A stretch of DNA of 50,073 bases from Clostridia bacterium (lineage in GTDB: Bacteria; Bacillota; Clostridia; Christensenellales; Borkfalkiaceae): NCBI GenBank assembly GCA_017448355.1, contig JAFSLQ010000030.1:1-50073 (forward strand), read 5' to 3'. The notes under the pieces are model-generated. The model was not told where the DNA came from, searched no databases, and was given only the letters and a program-made list of their open reading frames with translations. The translations under genes and the position numbers were made by a program. Each line of letters begins with the position of its first letter. The first letter of the stretch is position 1. This document shows, piece by piece, positions 11,668 to 50,073 of this stretch.

Positions 11668-11705
11668 AAAAAGCACCCTGTCCGAAAAAGGTCAAAGTGC
11701 TTTTT
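11668..11705 (+). terminator. Terminator after the glycosyltransferase gene
   Basis: AAAAAGCAC (11668-11676) pairs with GTGCTTTTT (11697-11705), with a small inner CC/GG pairing. The tract of T residues completes a typical intrinsic terminator. Confidence 0.75.
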
Positions 11706-11731
11706 GTTTAATAAGTTAACGGTTTTTCCCT

Positions 11732-11758
11732 GTTTAATTTTTGATTTTGCGAAAACTA
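11732..11758 (+). repeat. Dispersed repeat R2
   Basis: GTTTAATTTTTGATTTTGCG then AAAACTA, in the same orientation as R1 and R3. It stands at the exact 5' truncation point of the SLOG pseudogene. Confidence 0.8.
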
Positions 11759-12047
11759 CAAAAAGACTTTCCGGACATTGAATTGATTTTTATTTTTCCG
11801 TATCAGGATACGTCTTACAGCAAATTGCAAATAGCAAGTGAAACATATGACGGCACTCTTTATCCCCCGATAGAAACCGTACCGAAAAAAATTTGCAATA
11901 TTACAGCGCAACGAGTGGATGGTTGATAGTTGCGACCTGTTAGTTGCTTATGTAAAATATTCCTGGGGTGGCGATAGAAAAACCCTAGACTACGCAATTC
12001 GAAAAAAGAAACCTTATATAAACTTTGCGGGACGTCAAAAAGGCTGA
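11741..12047 (+). pseudogene. Truncated, frameshifted SLOG/DUF1273-like gene
   Basis: The first frame gives LRKLQKDFPDIELIFIFPYQ, the middle strand of a DUF1273/YpsA-type SLOG fold. After the A7 tract at 11885-11891 the family pattern continues in another frame as FAILQRNEWMVDSCDLLVAY, then VKYSWGGDRKTLDYAIRKKK, ending at TGA 12045-12047. One extra A in the tract explains the shift. The N-terminal FTGHR and GGALGFD-type part, present in the intact relative at 40954-41457, is missing because the gene is fused to repeat R2. Non-functional. Confidence 0.8.
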
Positions 12048-40953: not shown

Positions 40954-41457
40954 TTACGGAGAGTTTGTTATAACAGACTCTCCGTATTTTTTTGCGACGT
41001 TATATACCATCAACCCGTTTTTAATAGCGTAATTCACGGTATATGCTGTTCCCCCGCTGTTTCGTTTCAAATAACAAATACAGTACCCGCTGTTATCTAC
41101 AAGGTGGCGATTGCGCTTTTGCATACAACCGTCATAATACTGCTCCGAAACATAAACTACTTTATCCGCTTGGCGAAGAATATCGTTATATCTTTTAATG
41201 TCATAATCGCTCCAACCACGCGTCTGATTTTTACACGGCAAAACGAGTATAAGTTTTATTCGCGGAAAACTCTCTTTTAATTCCAAAACACTCTCGGCGG
41301 CGATAGTGTCAAATCCTAATGCTCCGCCTGCCCCGAAAAATATTACCCCTTTATTTATTAGAGCAATAACGGCTTTTTTAACTTGCGCTTTTATACTGTC
41401 AAAATCGCTACGGTTAATTAGTCTATGACCTGTAAAACAACACGTCCTTTTTTTCAT
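40954..41457 (-). CDS. SLOG-family protein (DUF1273/YpsA-like)
   Basis: 167 residues. SLOG Rossmann-like fold: RTCCFTGHRLINRSDFDSIK at the N-terminus, the glycine-rich FFGAGGALGFDTIAAE, LILVLPCKNQTRGWS, MQKRNRHLVDNS and NSGGTAYTVNYAIKNG. SLOG proteins bind nucleotide-derived ligands and occur in plasmids, phages and defence loci. The intact copy here helps to identify the broken relative at 11741-12047. Upstream lies a long structured minus-strand leader or RNA (41521-41727) with a terminator, so its expression may depend on read-through. Confidence 0.88.
   Translation of the reverse strand: MKKRTCCFTGHRLINRSDFDSIKAQVKKAVIALINKGVIFFGAGGALGFDTIAAESVLELKESFPRIKLILVLPCKNQTRGWSDYDIKRYNDILRQADKVVYVSEQYYDGCMQKRNRHLVDNSGYCICYLKRNSGGTAYTVNYAIKNGLMVYNVAKKYGESVITNSP
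40955..40986. terminator. Bidirectional terminator between methylase-like and SLOG genes
   Basis: TACGGAGAGT-t-TGTTA-TAACA-g-ACTCTCCGTA, nearly perfect, with T-rich exits on the plus strand. It overlaps the last codons of the minus-strand SLOG gene. Confidence 0.85.
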
Positions 41458-41476: not shown

Positions 41477-41515
41477 ATAGCCGCTTAAAATCTTTTTTAG
41501 ACTTTAAACGGCTAT
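41477..41515 (-). other. Hairpin upstream of the SLOG start codon
   Basis: ATAGCCG-c-TTAAA and TTTAA-a-CGGCTAT form a 12-bp stem with one bulge, 20 bases before the SLOG start. It may be a regulatory stem of that mRNA. Confidence 0.6.
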
Positions 41516-41520
41516 GAAAT

Positions 41521-41727
41521 TAAAAATGCCGCCCCCATACGAGAGCGGCACCGTAGAATATACCTTTCTCGTAAGTTGCTAAACTCGTTTACGTTCCCCT
41601 AAAAACAAAAGTTCTATGGAGTTAATAAACACGATAAGAGATATAATCCTACCACGATTATATCCATAGAACAAGGTTTTTATTAAGTTTGGAGAACGTC
41701 TATATAAATATAGTGTTCGAGTTTAGC
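41521..41727 (-). ncRNA. Candidate structured RNA with own promoter and terminator (~207 nt)
   Basis: On the minus strand the predicted first base (41727) is the first G of GCTAAACTCG, which pairs with CGAGTTTAGC (41587-41578). Inside, ACGTTC (41699-41694) pairs with GAACGT (41596-41591), TAAAAAC (41682-41676) with GTTTTTA (41606-41600), GTTCTATGG (41672-41664) with CCATAGAAC (41619-41611), and ATATAATC with GATTATAT at the tip; CTATAT-TT-ATATAG is a side hairpin. A terminator hairpin follows. It is either a free-standing RNA or an attenuating leader of the SLOG gene. Confidence 0.65.
41527..41550 (-). terminator. Intrinsic terminator of the candidate RNA
   Basis: On the minus strand TGCCGC-N12-GCGGCA followed by TTTTTA. 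It sits about 70 bases before the SLOG start codon. Confidence 0.75.
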
Positions 41728-41733
41728 ATACTT

Positions 41734-41762
41734 ATTATAACTTTTTTATTATCAAAAGTCAA
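41734..41762 (-). promoter_or_regulatory. Promoter of the candidate RNA
   Basis: TTGACT (41762-41757), exactly 17 bases, TATAAT (41739-41734). The expected +1 at 41727 is the first base of the outer stem. Confidence 0.8.
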
Positions 41763-43993: not shown

Positions 43994-44251
43994 ATGTACT
44001 ACGGCTATAAAATTGAAATAACGGAAGACGGAAAAACTAAATATAATATTTGCAGAACCCCTAACGAAACTCTTTTACAATTAGAATATTATTTAAAATT
44101 TCCGCCTTATGTTAAAAACAGAACGATACGGATATTAGACATTACGAAACAAGAAGTTAAAGACGGTATATTCGATAAACTCCCTTGGTATTCCACGGGA
44201 GTTATTTTTTTAACAATAACTATTAAAAATTTAAGGAGAAAACAAAAATGA
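43994..44251 (+). CDS. Hypothetical small protein (85 aa)
   Basis: MYYGYKIEITEDGKTKYNIC, then LLQLEYYLKFPPYVKNRTIR. The C-terminus is hydrophobic then basic (WYSTGVIFLTITIKNLRRKQ), so a membrane-touching tail is possible. It begins immediately at the preceding stop and overlaps the next gene by 4 bases (ATGA). Confidence 0.6.
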   Translation: MYYGYKIEITEDGKTKYNICRTPNETLLQLEYYLKFPPYVKNRTIRILDITKQEVKDGIFDKLPWYSTGVIFLTITIKNLRRKQK

Positions 44252-45195
44252 TTGTATTAAATCTGAAAGCAAACGATAACCAGCAAGAACGGCTTAAAGC
44301 CTACCTGCAAGACAACGTTTCCGAAACTCTTGCGAACAAAATAAATAACGGCGTAAAAATAGAAAAAGACGGCAAGCAGTTGATCTCTAAAAAAGACCTT
44401 GACGATTTTTTGGACTACGCCTGCAAAAAAGCGCAGGAACAGGCTGAAAAAGGCAAACGCTCGGCTATGGTGGAAGATGAAATTGTTTTCGGCTGGGCTA
44501 TGCACTATTTTGAAGAAGACAGCATCGAAGGCAAGTTATATAACACAGACGGAACGCCGTACGAACCGCCTAAACCGAAATACACACCGAAACCCGTTAC
44601 TACCGTTACGCCACCGCCTAAAAAAAATATTCAGCCTAATATGTTCGACCTTTTAAGTAAAAACGAAGACACTGACAATCAACACGGTGACGATACGGAC
44701 GCAGAAACGGAAGAACCAGAAGATGACATCACCGAAGAAGAAAAACAGGAAGTCTTTGAAGAATTAGCGCAAGAAGAACAACAAAAAGAAACCTCAAAAG
44801 TCAGCCCTATATACACACATTATACAGAACTGCAAGAAAAATATCCCGACTGCGTTATAGCCTACCGTTTAGGAGATTTCTATGAAATATTCGGTGAAAA
44901 CGCCGTTAAGATAGCGAATGCTTTAGATCTGACTTTAACAGGGCGTGATGTTGGCTTACCTGAACGGATACCGATGGTAGGCTTTCCCTATCACGCCGCA
45001 GATATTTATATAGCAAAAATAATAGAGAAAGGTTTTAAGGTGGCCGTTGTGGAAAGTCTGAACGATATAACCGTAAAGCCTGAAAATATGAAAATAGATA
45101 TGGAAACGGGAGAAATTATTAAAGATGATAATAACGGCGCTTTAATAAATATCCTTAAAGAACTTTTCGGAAACACTTTGGAGATAAGATTATGA
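44248..45195 (+). CDS. PcfK-like protein fused to a MutS domain I
   Basis: 315 residues. The N-terminal part (about 1-110) follows the PcfK-like family of conjugative plasmids: ERLKAYLQDNVSETLANKIN, SKKDLDDFLDYACKKAQEQA and DEIVFGWAMHYFEEDSIEGK. A Pro-rich then acidic linker (about 115-185) leads to a MutS mismatch-recognition domain I (about 186-285): HYTELQEKYPDCVIAYRLGD with FYEIFGENA, LTLTGRDVGLPERIPMVGFP and YHAADIYIAKIIEKGFKVAV. There is no MutS ATPase, so it can only bind DNA or partners. The gene overlaps pcfJ by 4 bases. Confidence 0.85.
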   Translation: MIVLNLKANDNQQERLKAYLQDNVSETLANKINNGVKIEKDGKQLISKKDLDDFLDYACKKAQEQAEKGKRSAMVEDEIVFGWAMHYFEEDSIEGKLYNTDGTPYEPPKPKYTPKPVTTVTPPPKKNIQPNMFDLLSKNEDTDNQHGDDTDAETEEPEDDITEEEKQEVFEELAQEEQQKETSKVSPIYTHYTELQEKYPDCVIAYRLGDFYEIFGENAVKIANALDLTLTGRDVGLPERIPMVGFPYHAADIYIAKIIEKGFKVAVVESLNDITVKPENMKIDMETGEIIKDDNNGALINILKELFGNTLEIRL

Positions 45196-47456: not shown

Positions 47457-50073
47457 TTATCCGCGTTTCCAATAGTTGTACTTGTATCTTGAAGTTAAGT
47501 AACTTGCGGCGGTAGAGGTGTTTGACAAATCGCTACTTAAAAGCGACGATGGACTACTCATGTTGCTATTACGAGAAACCTTCCAACCGCTTGTATTTAT
47601 AAACGTTGCACTTGTTAGCTTGCTACAACCAGAGAACGCACAATACCCTATACTCGTTACGCTGTTTGGTATAGTTATACTTTTCAAACCGCTACAATTC
47701 TCGAACGCAGAACTACCTATACTCGTTACACTGTTTGGTATTGTTATACTCGTTAAACTACTACAACCAGAGAAAGCATAATCCCCTATACTCGTTACAC
47801 TATTTGGTATTGTTATACTCGTTAAACCGCTACAACCAGAAAACGCAGAACCCCCTATACTCGTTACACTACCGTCAGTAGGAATTATACTGTTTTTATA
47901 ACCTAATATAAGGGTTTTACTTGATGTTTCAATTAAACAATTACCGCTACTGTGATACCCTGTGTTTCCACTTGTTGCGATTATACTCGTTAAACCGCTA
48001 CAACCTGAGAACGCACCCTCTCCTACACTCGTTACACTGTTTGGTATTGTTATACTCGTTAAACTACTACAATTATAGAATGCAGAACCCCCTATACTTT
48101 TCGCACTGTCAGGTATAGTTATACTCGTTAATTTAGTGCAATTACGGAACGCAGCACCCTCTATACTCGTTACACTGTCAGGGATAGTTACACTCGTTAA
48201 ACTGCTACAATTCTCGAACACAGAAATCCCTATACTCGTTACATTGTCAGGTATAGTTATACTTGTTAATTTAGTACAATTACGGAACGCAGCACCCCCT
48301 ATACTCGTTACGCTGTCAGATAGAGTTACACTCGTTAAACTGCTACAATTCTCGAACGCAGAACTACCTATACTCGTTACGCTGTTTGGTATAGTTATAC
48401 TTTTCAAACCGCTACAATTCTCGAACGCATATCTACCTATACTCGTTACACTGTTTGGTATTGTTATACTCGTTAAACTACTACAACCAGAGAAAGCATA
48501 ATCCCCTATACTCGTTACACTATTTGGTATTGTTATACTCGTTAACCCGCTACAACCAGAAAACGCAGAACCTCCTATACTCGTTACGCTATTACCTATA
48601 GTTACACTCGTTAAACTACTACAATTCCGAAACGCAGAACCCCCTATACTTTTTACACTGTCAGGAATTATCACTGCTTGTATGTTATTATAATTATTAA
48701 ACACGCCATCGCCTATATTAACAACACCATAGATGATATTAATCGTTCCCTGTATTTTTTTCGGCACAAAAACAATTTCCGTTTTACCCCTATTGTAAAC
48801 AATACCACCTTGACTATAAAAATATTTATTTCCAATATCAAAGGTCACATTATTTAACTGTGTACATGAAGCCAAAAGCGCTTTAATATTACTTGCGTTT
48901 ATAACACTACCATATATTGTTAATTTTTTCAAAGAAGTAAAATTATCAAATGCTGAATTATTAATAATGCTAACTCCATACCCGATAGTTAAATCATTAA
49001 TTTTACAACCTATAAAAGCATTTGCACCGATAGTTCCTCCTTCTACCGTTAGTGTTTTTAATGAAGCAGGCGGCACATCCCCTTCATAATAATTAAAAAT
49101 CCAACCAAGATAGTTATTCTCTGAAGAATTATGGCTTTCACCAATAAATGGTAAAGTCATTGCTTTTATTTTTTCGCAACCCTTGAACGCACTACCTCCT
49201 ATCCTCATTACACTATTTGGAACAATTAGCGTCTCCAGATTATTACAATCCCAAAATGCTAAACTCTCGATGCTTCTTACGCCCTCTTGAAGTTCTACAA
49301 ATACTAAGTTTGTACACCTCATAAATGCATAGCGTTTTATTATTCCGTTTTTAATTACAACCGAACATAAACCACTACACCCTTTGAATGCACCCTCTCC
49401 TATACTCGTTACACTATCAGGTATAGTTACACTCGCTAAACTACTACAATTACAGAACGCATAATCTTCTATACTTGTTACACTGTTTCCAATAGTTATA
49501 CTCGTTAAACTGCTACAATTATAGAAAGCTCTATTCCCTATACTCGTTACGCTGTCAGATAGAGTTACCCTCGTTAAACCGCTACAATTATAGAAAGCGC
49601 CGTATAATATATTGCCGCCAGTTACCGTTACTTTTGTTAATGATGACGGGATATAATATGTAGTTTTAGTAGTTGAATTCGTACTACTACTATAATACGA
49701 TTGTTGTGTAGCAGTCCCCCCAGTATAATCCCATGTACAGAAGATATAGCCGAACGGCATTTGATAAGTATCACTACTGGTTACGGCTGCTTTTGCCCCT
49801 ACAAAAGGAATAGTTAGTTCTTGTAATGATGTACACTTTCCGAATGTATACTCTCCAATACTCGTTACACTATCAGGTATAGTTACACTCGTTAAACTGC
49901 TACAATTATAGAACGCATAATATCCTATACTCGTTACGCTGTTTGGTATTGTTATACTCGTTAAACTACTACAATTACAGAACGCATAATCTTCTATACT
50001 TGTTACACTGTTTCCAATAGTTATACTCGTTAAACTGCTACAATTATAGAAAGCTCTATTCCCTATACTCGTT
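47457..50073 (-). CDS. BspA-type leucine-rich-repeat surface protein (5' end outside the window)
   Basis: The open frame runs through the window edge, so at least 871 residues are present and the start is missing. An internal ATG at 49760 (MPFGYIFCTWDY) is not the start, since repeats continue upstream in frame. Over 25 units of about 23 residues follow the BspA/LRR_5 consensus SITIPNSVTSIGDYAFSGCS. These solenoids mediate adhesion to host or other cells, or carbohydrate binding, and are usually secreted. The C-terminus (SLLSSDLSNTSTAASYLTSR then YKYNYWKRG) has no LPXTG or anchor. Neighbouring repeats are almost identical in DNA, with large internal duplications. Confidence 0.9.
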   Translation of the reverse strand, partial: TSIGNRAFYNCSSLTSITIGNSVTSIEDYAFCNCSSLTSITIPNSVTSIGYYAFYNCSSLTSVTIPDSVTSIGEYTFGKCTSLQELTIPFVGAKAAVTSSDTYQMPFGYIFCTWDYTGGTATQQSYYSSSTNSTTKTTYYIPSSLTKVTVTGGNILYGAFYNCSGLTRVTLSDSVTSIGNRAFYNCSSLTSITIGNSVTSIEDYAFCNCSSLASVTIPDSVTSIGEGAFKGCSGLCSVVIKNGIIKRYAFMRCTNLVFVELQEGVRSIESLAFWDCNNLETLIVPNSVMRIGGSAFKGCEKIKAMTLPFIGESHNSSENNYLGWIFNYYEGDVPPASLKTLTVEGGTIGANAFIGCKINDLTIGYGVSIINNSAFDNFTSLKKLTIYGSVINASNIKALLASCTQLNNVTFDIGNKYFYSQGGIVYNRGKTEIVFVPKKIQGTINIIYGVVNIGDGVFNNYNNIQAVIIPDSVKSIGGSAFRNCSSLTSVTIGNSVTSIGGSAFSGCSGLTSITIPNSVTSIGDYAFSGCSSLTSITIPNSVTSIGRYAFENCSGLKSITIPNSVTSIGSSAFENCSSLTSVTLSDSVTSIGGAAFRNCTKLTSITIPDNVTSIGISVFENCSSLTSVTIPDSVTSIEGAAFRNCTKLTSITIPDSAKSIGGSAFYNCSSLTSITIPNSVTSVGEGAFSGCSGLTSIIATSGNTGYHSSGNCLIETSSKTLILGYKNSIIPTDGSVTSIGGSAFSGCSGLTSITIPNSVTSIGDYAFSGCSSLTSITIPNSVTSIGSSAFENCSGLKSITIPNSVTSIGYCAFSGCSKLTSATFINTSGWKVSRNSNMSSPSSLLSSDLSNTSTAASYLTSRYKYNYWKRG
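47647..47868 (-). repeat. Intragenic duplication copy 1 (partner at 48367-48588)
   Basis: About 220 bases are nearly identical to the segment 720 bases to the right, with only a handful of differences. 720 is a multiple of 3, so the reading frame is kept. It encodes about three LRR units. Confidence 0.9.
48367..48588 (-). repeat. Intragenic duplication copy 2 (partner at 47647-47868)
   Basis: Second copy, at a constant offset of 720 bases. Confidence 0.9.
49437..49548 (-). repeat. Intragenic duplication with 49962-50073
   Basis: 112 bases are identical to the last 112 bases of the window at an offset of 525 (175 codons). The second copy runs into the window edge, so the duplicated block may be longer. 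Confidence 0.9.
49962..50073 (-). repeat. Second copy of the 112-bp duplication, reaching the window edge
   Basis: Identical to 49437-49548. Confidence 0.9.

Follow-up and report, generated by a model that had tools for sequence, protein, structure and literature searches.

In the window, the whole stretch of 50,073 nucleotides of contig JAFSLQ010000030.1 (Clostridia bacterium) analyzed here, a 207-nt RNA is predicted on the minus strand in front of the gene of a SLOG protein (SLOG proteins are small and bind nucleotides). It belongs to a multi-copy family with four conserved helices, and we consider it likely that it is a cis-acting leader which controls the following gene by transcription attenuation. 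The original prediction had left the choice between a free-standing, 6S-like RNA and a leader that attenuates the SLOG gene. The evidence is much stronger for the leader than for the free RNA, but its use is not restricted to SLOG genes. The structure is more than the rod proposed at first, because covariation in 55 to 90 homologues shows competing helices. Apparently, the leader RNA is an uncatalogued structured RNA class of a known kind, i.e., an orphan attenuator or riboswitch candidate.

Promoter, ends and parts of the leader RNA

The sigma-70-type promoter of the RNA matches 11 of the 12 consensus letters. It was the best of seven promoter-like sites in the 2.5 kb scanned, where the number of sites is not above chance (shuffled sequences give 7.4 ± 3.2 sites at the lower threshold of the scan). 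The predicted first base of the transcript, 41727, is located six bases past TATAAT and is at the same time the first base of the outer stem P1. The RNA ends with an intrinsic terminator, which consists of a stem (41552-41525) followed by a T run. That promoter, stem start and terminator fit each other to the base, as claimed in the original prediction, is borne out by reading the sequence and by the fold: the minimum free energy of the 207-nt RNA is -74.5 kcal/mol, compared to -39.7 ± 4.1 kcal/mol for 200 dinucleotide shuffles, none of which was as good (z -8.5). The absence of an open frame was likewise confirmed. No ORF of at least 60 aa overlaps the RNA on either strand, and the longest minus-strand frame fully within it comprises 31 aa and begins with TTG. 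The cmsearch match on the leader RNA spans positions 41520-41727. The features are as follows.

41734..41762, minus strand: sigma-70-type promoter TTGACT-17-TATAAT, with a geometry found family-wide
41521..41727, minus strand: whole leader RNA, from the predicted +1 to the end of the terminator T run, 207 nt
41718..41727, minus strand: 5' arm of P1, GCTAAACTCG, from the predicted +1 (covariation, 55 homologues)
41656..41664, minus strand: 5' arm of the apical hairpin P3, GATATAATC (covariation)
41640..41652, minus strand: apical strand GTAGGATTATATC, i.e., the 3' arm of P3 and GTAG of the loop; its alternative partner is the tail (helix LR)
41626..41639, minus strand: partly conserved stretch TCTTATCGTGTTTA, 3' of P3, a candidate sensing element
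41578..41587, minus strand: 3' arm of P1, CGAGTTTAGC (covariation)
41567..41575, minus strand: outer 5' arm of the antiterminator, CTTACGAGA
41553..41564, minus strand: GGTATATTCTAC, 3' strand of the long-range helix LR; its first five bases double as the inner 5' arm of the antiterminator
41538..41552, minus strand: 5' arm and loop of the terminator; some of these bases (GTGCC, TCTCGTA) serve in the antiterminator as well, as its 3' half
41525..41536, minus strand: 3' arm of the terminator, followed by the T run
41477..41515, minus strand: second hairpin resembling a terminator, with 17 pairs including 5 G-C, located past the leader and ahead of the SLOG gene
40954..41457, minus strand: gene of a SLOG protein, YpsA family, 167 aa (PF06908, E = 3.5e-22)

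The position of the promoter relative to P1 recurs in the family. In 77 of 89 copies (all of the 90 rows except L108) a promoter with at least 9 of 12 consensus letters ends 5-8 nt ahead of P1, which is true for 1.9% of letter-shuffled upstream sequence, and in 74 of the 89 the best site is located exactly 6 nt from P1. Among the 38 copies outside the training set of covariance model R2 (see below), such a promoter was found in 31 and a distance of 6 in 33. Judged from these sequences, the geometry is not chance, and because it recurs, P1 and the predicted transcript begin at the same base in most family copies.

Four helices of the RNA compete: the terminator, the antiterminator, LR and P3. 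In the window, LR is formed by the apical strand and the tail, whereas the antiterminator has an outer stem, CTTACGAGA with TCTCGTA, and an inner one, GGTAT with GTGCC. Since both P3 and LR use the apical strand, they are mutually exclusive; so are LR and the antiterminator, to which GGTAT is common, and the antiterminator and the terminator, which both contain bases of GTGCCGCTCTC. An interpretation in which the outer stem of the antiterminator forms a pseudoknot with the loop of the terminator was dropped, as the stem is nested once the inner GGUAU/GUGCC pairing is included. At least 90% conservation was found for GGUA in the apical loop and for the UC of UCG, which is located in the bulge 3' of P3, and at least 70% for the G of this UCG. 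The first G of the GGUAG loop falls outside LR; therefore, pairing in LR alone does not account for its conservation.

Conservation and covariation of the competing helices

Compensation of stem changes in homologues had been put forward as one test of the RNA gene, together with a covariance model built from homologues. The changes are compensated, and the model revealed a multi-copy family with covarying helices. In the alignment of 55 homologues, 96.7% of the cells of P1 are paired and all of its 10 pairs show two-sided changes. LR is paired to 93.1%, and 9 of its 12 pairs have changed on both sides. The values are 85.2% for the five pairs of the outer stem of the antiterminator and 96.0% for the lower stem of the terminator; over both alignments the terminator stem reaches 95-96%. 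P3 is paired to 72-78% on the 55 homologues and to 82-84% on 90 rows.

On these 90 rows, P1, P3 and the terminator together are paired to 92.9% and show a covariation of 0.564 compared to 0.213 ± 0.008 in shuffled alignments, where the fitting of the alignments (A6 and A7) to the model favours P1 and the terminator and, in A7, also P3. LR and the antiterminator are not part of model R2, yet they share conserved letters with it. LR is paired to 89.1% (covariation 0.324 vs. 0.235 ± 0.008 shuffled) and the ten pairs of the antiterminator to 86.4% (0.389 vs. 0.259 ± 0.011), some alignment rows being tandem copies of one locus and hence not independent. Four of five covariation measures of the antiterminator were reached by none of 500 shuffles; the fifth, the number of pairs with a two-sided change (8), was equalled in 86 of the 500. 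Slid versions of the helices never exceeded a covariation of 0.204. All four helices were found again in the 38 copies outside R2 training, at a pairing cut for listing of 0.68, slightly below the 0.70 used otherwise. These are 38 of 40 matches; two rows of L165 were dropped, whose scores are identical to those of L099, which is in the model.

The strands of each copy also fit each other better than those of other copies. Strand swapping and single-sequence folding were applied to 88 of the 90 rows (without L108, which is incomplete, and L080:6367-6466). The own LR duplex has a mean energy of -11.1 kcal/mol compared to -7.0 ± 0.26 kcal/mol for permuted strands (lowest of 2000 permutations: -7.9), the own antiterminator -14.7 compared to -9.7 ± 0.30 kcal/mol (lowest of 2000: -10.9). 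Own strands were better than the median swap in 83 of 88 copies for LR and in 82 of 88 for the antiterminator. When the eight copies of the own genome are compared with each other, five have their own tail as the best LR partner and four their own strands as the best antiterminator partners, with about one expected by chance in each case.

The antiterminator fold, in which the tail pairs with the 5' arm of the terminator, has a z-score below -2 in 79 of 88 copies and below -1 in 86, if only the stretch 5' of the terminator is shuffled, copy by copy. The median energies over the 88 copies are -15.3 kcal/mol for the antiterminator, -16.6 for the terminator and -6.7 for the shuffled sequences; for the leader in the window the values are -16.0, -18.6 and -5.9 kcal/mol (z -4.6). 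A z-score above zero was obtained for two of the 88 copies. One of them is L074 of the own genome, in which both LR (-0.5) and the antiterminator (z +0.7) are poor although its SLOG gene follows at a distance of 0 nt. The four helices are conserved, covarying and mutually overlapping pairings, and the computed energies of terminator and antiterminator are similar.

Distribution of the family and downstream genes

A DNA search gave matches in 12 of 101 genomes, the own genome included here and in the following counts. The DNA matches L010, L011 and L015 (two genomes) cover the promoter only and were dropped. Covariance model R1, built from six homologues, matched in 46 of 151 genomes and in the own genome at six places with E < 0.001 and at one with 0.62. 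Model R2, built from 55 homologues, identified 8 places in the own genome. Within the order, it matched in at least 33 of 200 genomes, at a maximum of 10 places per genome, and within the class in at least 15 of 391 genomes. In a draw of 398 genomes of the phylum a match was obtained in the own genome only, which is no proof of absence, since the wide searches filter strictly. All tallies from searches of more than 40 genomes are lower bounds, as stricter filters were applied and few candidates were scored per genome (R1, 151 genomes: 17; R2: 12 for the order, 6 each for class and phylum).

A search with the tail pattern yielded 21 named records, 18 of them with an R1 match. The carriers are uncultured Clostridia or Clostridiales MAGs, and for 10 of the 18 the title names the host: gut of sheep, goat, deer or water buffalo. 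The other three records (L095, L100 and L102) show no R1 match and look coincidental. Several loci carry tandem arrays of two to four copies, most of them with their own promoter (L052, L006/L053, L054, L055, L096 and L099). L052:6630-7303 contains three copies and L054:6389-7376 four; the rods differ strongly, the promoters and tails are nearly identical. The arrays stand before SLOG, lipoprotein, Rho_N-like and unknown genes. With its own promoter per copy, an array would mostly yield short RNAs from the upstream copies, which perhaps act as decoys.

In Rfam 15, no family reached its gathering score on the leader RNA, neither in the window nor in 36 other loci and with neither strict nor permissive settings (L008 and L128 in this set are one place). 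Matches above threshold were RNase P, L10 leader, tmRNA and tRNAs, all of them elsewhere than the leader RNA; a few sub-threshold matches overlap it. Plasmid records gave no match, and among the phage matches listed (the best 20 of 50) only the promoter stretch was covered. Two patterns searched in IMG/VR gave 0 records; a third gave 3 records in an apparent phage coding frame, which have no R1 match and were rejected as chance. No description of the leader RNA was found in titles and abstract openings of openly licensed PMC text, which is weak evidence of absence.

The genes behind the 90 copies were classified by a SLOG profile and a crude signal peptide/transmembrane rule. In raw counts, a SLOG gene follows 28 copies, a gene for a signal-peptide or membrane protein 25 and another ORF 20. 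The remaining 17 copies have no ORF of 80 aa starting within 200 nt; the downstream sequence covers this distance for 13 of them and is shorter for 4. Taking all classes together, 59 of the 90 copies have an ORF start at a distance of up to 100 nt and 39 at up to 20 nt. The corresponding numbers are 23 and 14 of the 28 SLOG genes, and 23 and 15 of the 25 signal-peptide or membrane protein genes. The SLOG rows count the gene of L096 twice and include a 76-aa remnant at L005; all 28 were recognized by a profile built without the seeds L058 and L074, two divergent SLOG kinds for which Pfam gave no match. SLOG is the commonest single recognized neighbour, occurs in several divergent kinds and was also found behind the leader in other families of the class (L117, L121).

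In the own genome, the leader precedes SLOG genes in three copies and lipoprotein or secreted-protein genes in four; the remaining copy stands before an esterase-like frame, read from the sequence, which runs off the contig. Other neighbours include a BspA-type LRR protein and HTH_3 regulators (11 downstream proteins checked against Pfam). A small protein behind the leader at L111:3428-3850 has a Rho_N-like region that does not pass the Pfam cut-off (PF07498, E = 0.0021), and the proteins after the leader at L052:7320-7742 and L103 resemble it by eye. Conversely, with a profile made solely of RNA-linked SLOG proteins and 61 genomes searched, 8 of 30 SLOG loci (best match per genome, 30 genomes) carry the leader. 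Because of this, and because other genes share it, the leader is not an obligate accessory of SLOG genes, and SLOG seems to be one of several members of a regulon. Thus, of the second option of the original prediction the attenuation leader stood, given the competing conserved helices and the nearby ORFs, and the restriction to SLOG did not.

In B. subtilis, YpsA is reported to confer protection against peroxide and, if overproduced, to disturb cell division (PMC6459960). By analogy, tight control of a YpsA-type SLOG protein would be plausible on these two grounds.

Some further observations concern the neighbourhood of these genes. A 118-aa protein follows the SLOG gene at L059:7277-7630, L060, L093 and L108; for the one tested (L059) no convincing Pfam family was found. 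At L005/L065 an intact leader is followed by what was found only as the 76-aa SLOG remnant. In the window, a degenerate SLOG-like stretch with several stops is located at 11691-12029 on the plus strand (SLOG profile, E = 3.7e-17), with no R2 leader beside it, and a long repetitive LRR-like frame, BspA-like by eye, at 47457-49760 on the minus strand, with no R2 leader in front. An unusual-looking ORF at 44248-45195 on the plus strand fuses a PcfK-like region and a MutS domain I, and a PcfJ-like ORF follows directly. These surroundings may belong to a conjugative element.

Proposed attenuation and alternative explanations

The logic of a transcription attenuator is suggested because four conserved helices compete for shared strands. 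RNA polymerase would start at 41727 and make the domain closed by P1. Near the end of the RNA, the terminator, which would stop transcription, and the antiterminator, which would allow reading into the SLOG gene, would compete for bases. As long as P3 holds, the apical strand would be hidden and the tail free, and the antiterminator could form, with read-through into the gene. Invasion of P3 by the tail, beginning at the GGUAG loop, would instead produce LR; the antiterminator would then be deprived of its inner strand and the terminator would stop transcription. The balance between P3 and LR would be shifted by a signal from outside, such as temperature or a ligand, protein, ion or RNA, perhaps via the conserved GGUAG loop and the likewise conserved bulge with UCG 3' of P3. 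That the helices act in transcription, which state is ON, the dynamics and the part of an outside signal are what we infer.

Riboswitches with kissing loops and transcription-terminator expression platforms, e.g., cobalamin riboswitches, have a similar design. They share with the leader the closed domain, the choice between terminator and antiterminator, a long-range pairing from apex to platform, and several copies per genome before different genes, including tandem copies. For many riboswitch classes, tandem copies have been described (PMC9481103). Unlike in such riboswitches, the apical core of the leader is modestly conserved, most tandem copies have their own promoter, P1 starts at the predicted +1 and no Rfam family matches. 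Tentatively, the RNA might form a new riboswitch class, in which the apical GGUAG loop and the UCG bulge bind a small signal and so set read-through into SLOG and cell-surface genes; we regard this as possible, though doubtful. The signal would perhaps be nucleotide-derived, of the sort that SLOG domains bind, with the strand exchange between P3 and LR as the switch. T-box leaders (RF00230) are built on a terminator/antiterminator design as well and resemble the leader in the length of about 200 nt and in the alternative helices. However, no T-box appeared in the Rfam output, and no tRNA-synthetase or amino-acid gene was noticed by eye among the downstream proteins inspected.

Some findings do not fit a plain leader. 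Tandem copies mostly have their own promoters, 17 of 90 copies lack a near ORF, the helices of L074 are poor, and the gene in the window is preceded by a second terminator-like hairpin. That P1 mostly begins at the predicted +1 fits a discrete stable RNA, too. The RNA could therefore be a free-standing small RNA acting in trans, whose neighbour genes are there by chance or are partners via occasional read-through. The promoter and strong terminator of most copies, the arrays and the copies without a close gene agree with this explanation, which we judge to be unlikely. For such an RNA, there would be no obvious use of an antiterminator covarying with the terminator. Moreover, the next gene is of the SLOG or the signal-peptide/membrane type in 53 of 90 copies (raw count); for 29 of the 53, its start is no more than 20 nt past the RNA end, too near for another promoter in between.

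An RNA-protein module comparable to type III toxin-antitoxin systems, with SLOG as partner or toxin, the RNA as antitoxin and the terminator setting their ratio, appears very improbable to us. In type III systems, a promoter, a structured RNA, a terminator and a gene follow each other as they do here, and the frequency of SLOG among the neighbours (28 of 90), its divergent kinds and its occurrence in other families of the class would suit a partner protein. But no short-repeat antitoxin was seen, and the same RNA stands before proteins unrelated to each other (lipoproteins, BspA-type LRR proteins, HTH regulators), and 8 of 30 SLOG loci (best per genome) have the RNA. PADLOC gave no match for eight of nine proteins tested and weak ones only for L072 (E = 0.0014 and 0.0094).

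There is hardly any room for a lineage variant of 6S RNA (RF00013): the leader shares the rod-like outline and the paired ends with it, and the place of a 6S RNA would be vacant, as RF00013 matched nowhere in the own genome (96.7% complete), but it matched neither the locus nor 36 further loci, and an RNA at 8 places in one genome, linked to genes and with a terminator-antiterminator design, differs from 6S RNA. The msr-msd RNA of a retron, which has a similar a1/a2-like closing stem and a long hairpin, was already considered unlikely in the original prediction and is practically dismissed here: both RVT_1 hits in the genome fall on different contigs (C41 and C53), and no reverse transcriptase was seen among the listed downstream proteins (by eye; 11 checked against Pfam).

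The proposed attenuation leader adds an orphan attenuator class with a testable switch, whose four competing helices are named to the base, and with a linked set of genes. To our knowledge, the signals of SLOG proteins are largely unknown. The linked genes offer a handle on these proteins and on the control of surface lipoproteins in gut Clostridia, which are mainly known from metagenomes. If the riboswitch reading is true, it would link signalling by nucleotides with remodelling of the cell surface in uncultured Clostridia.
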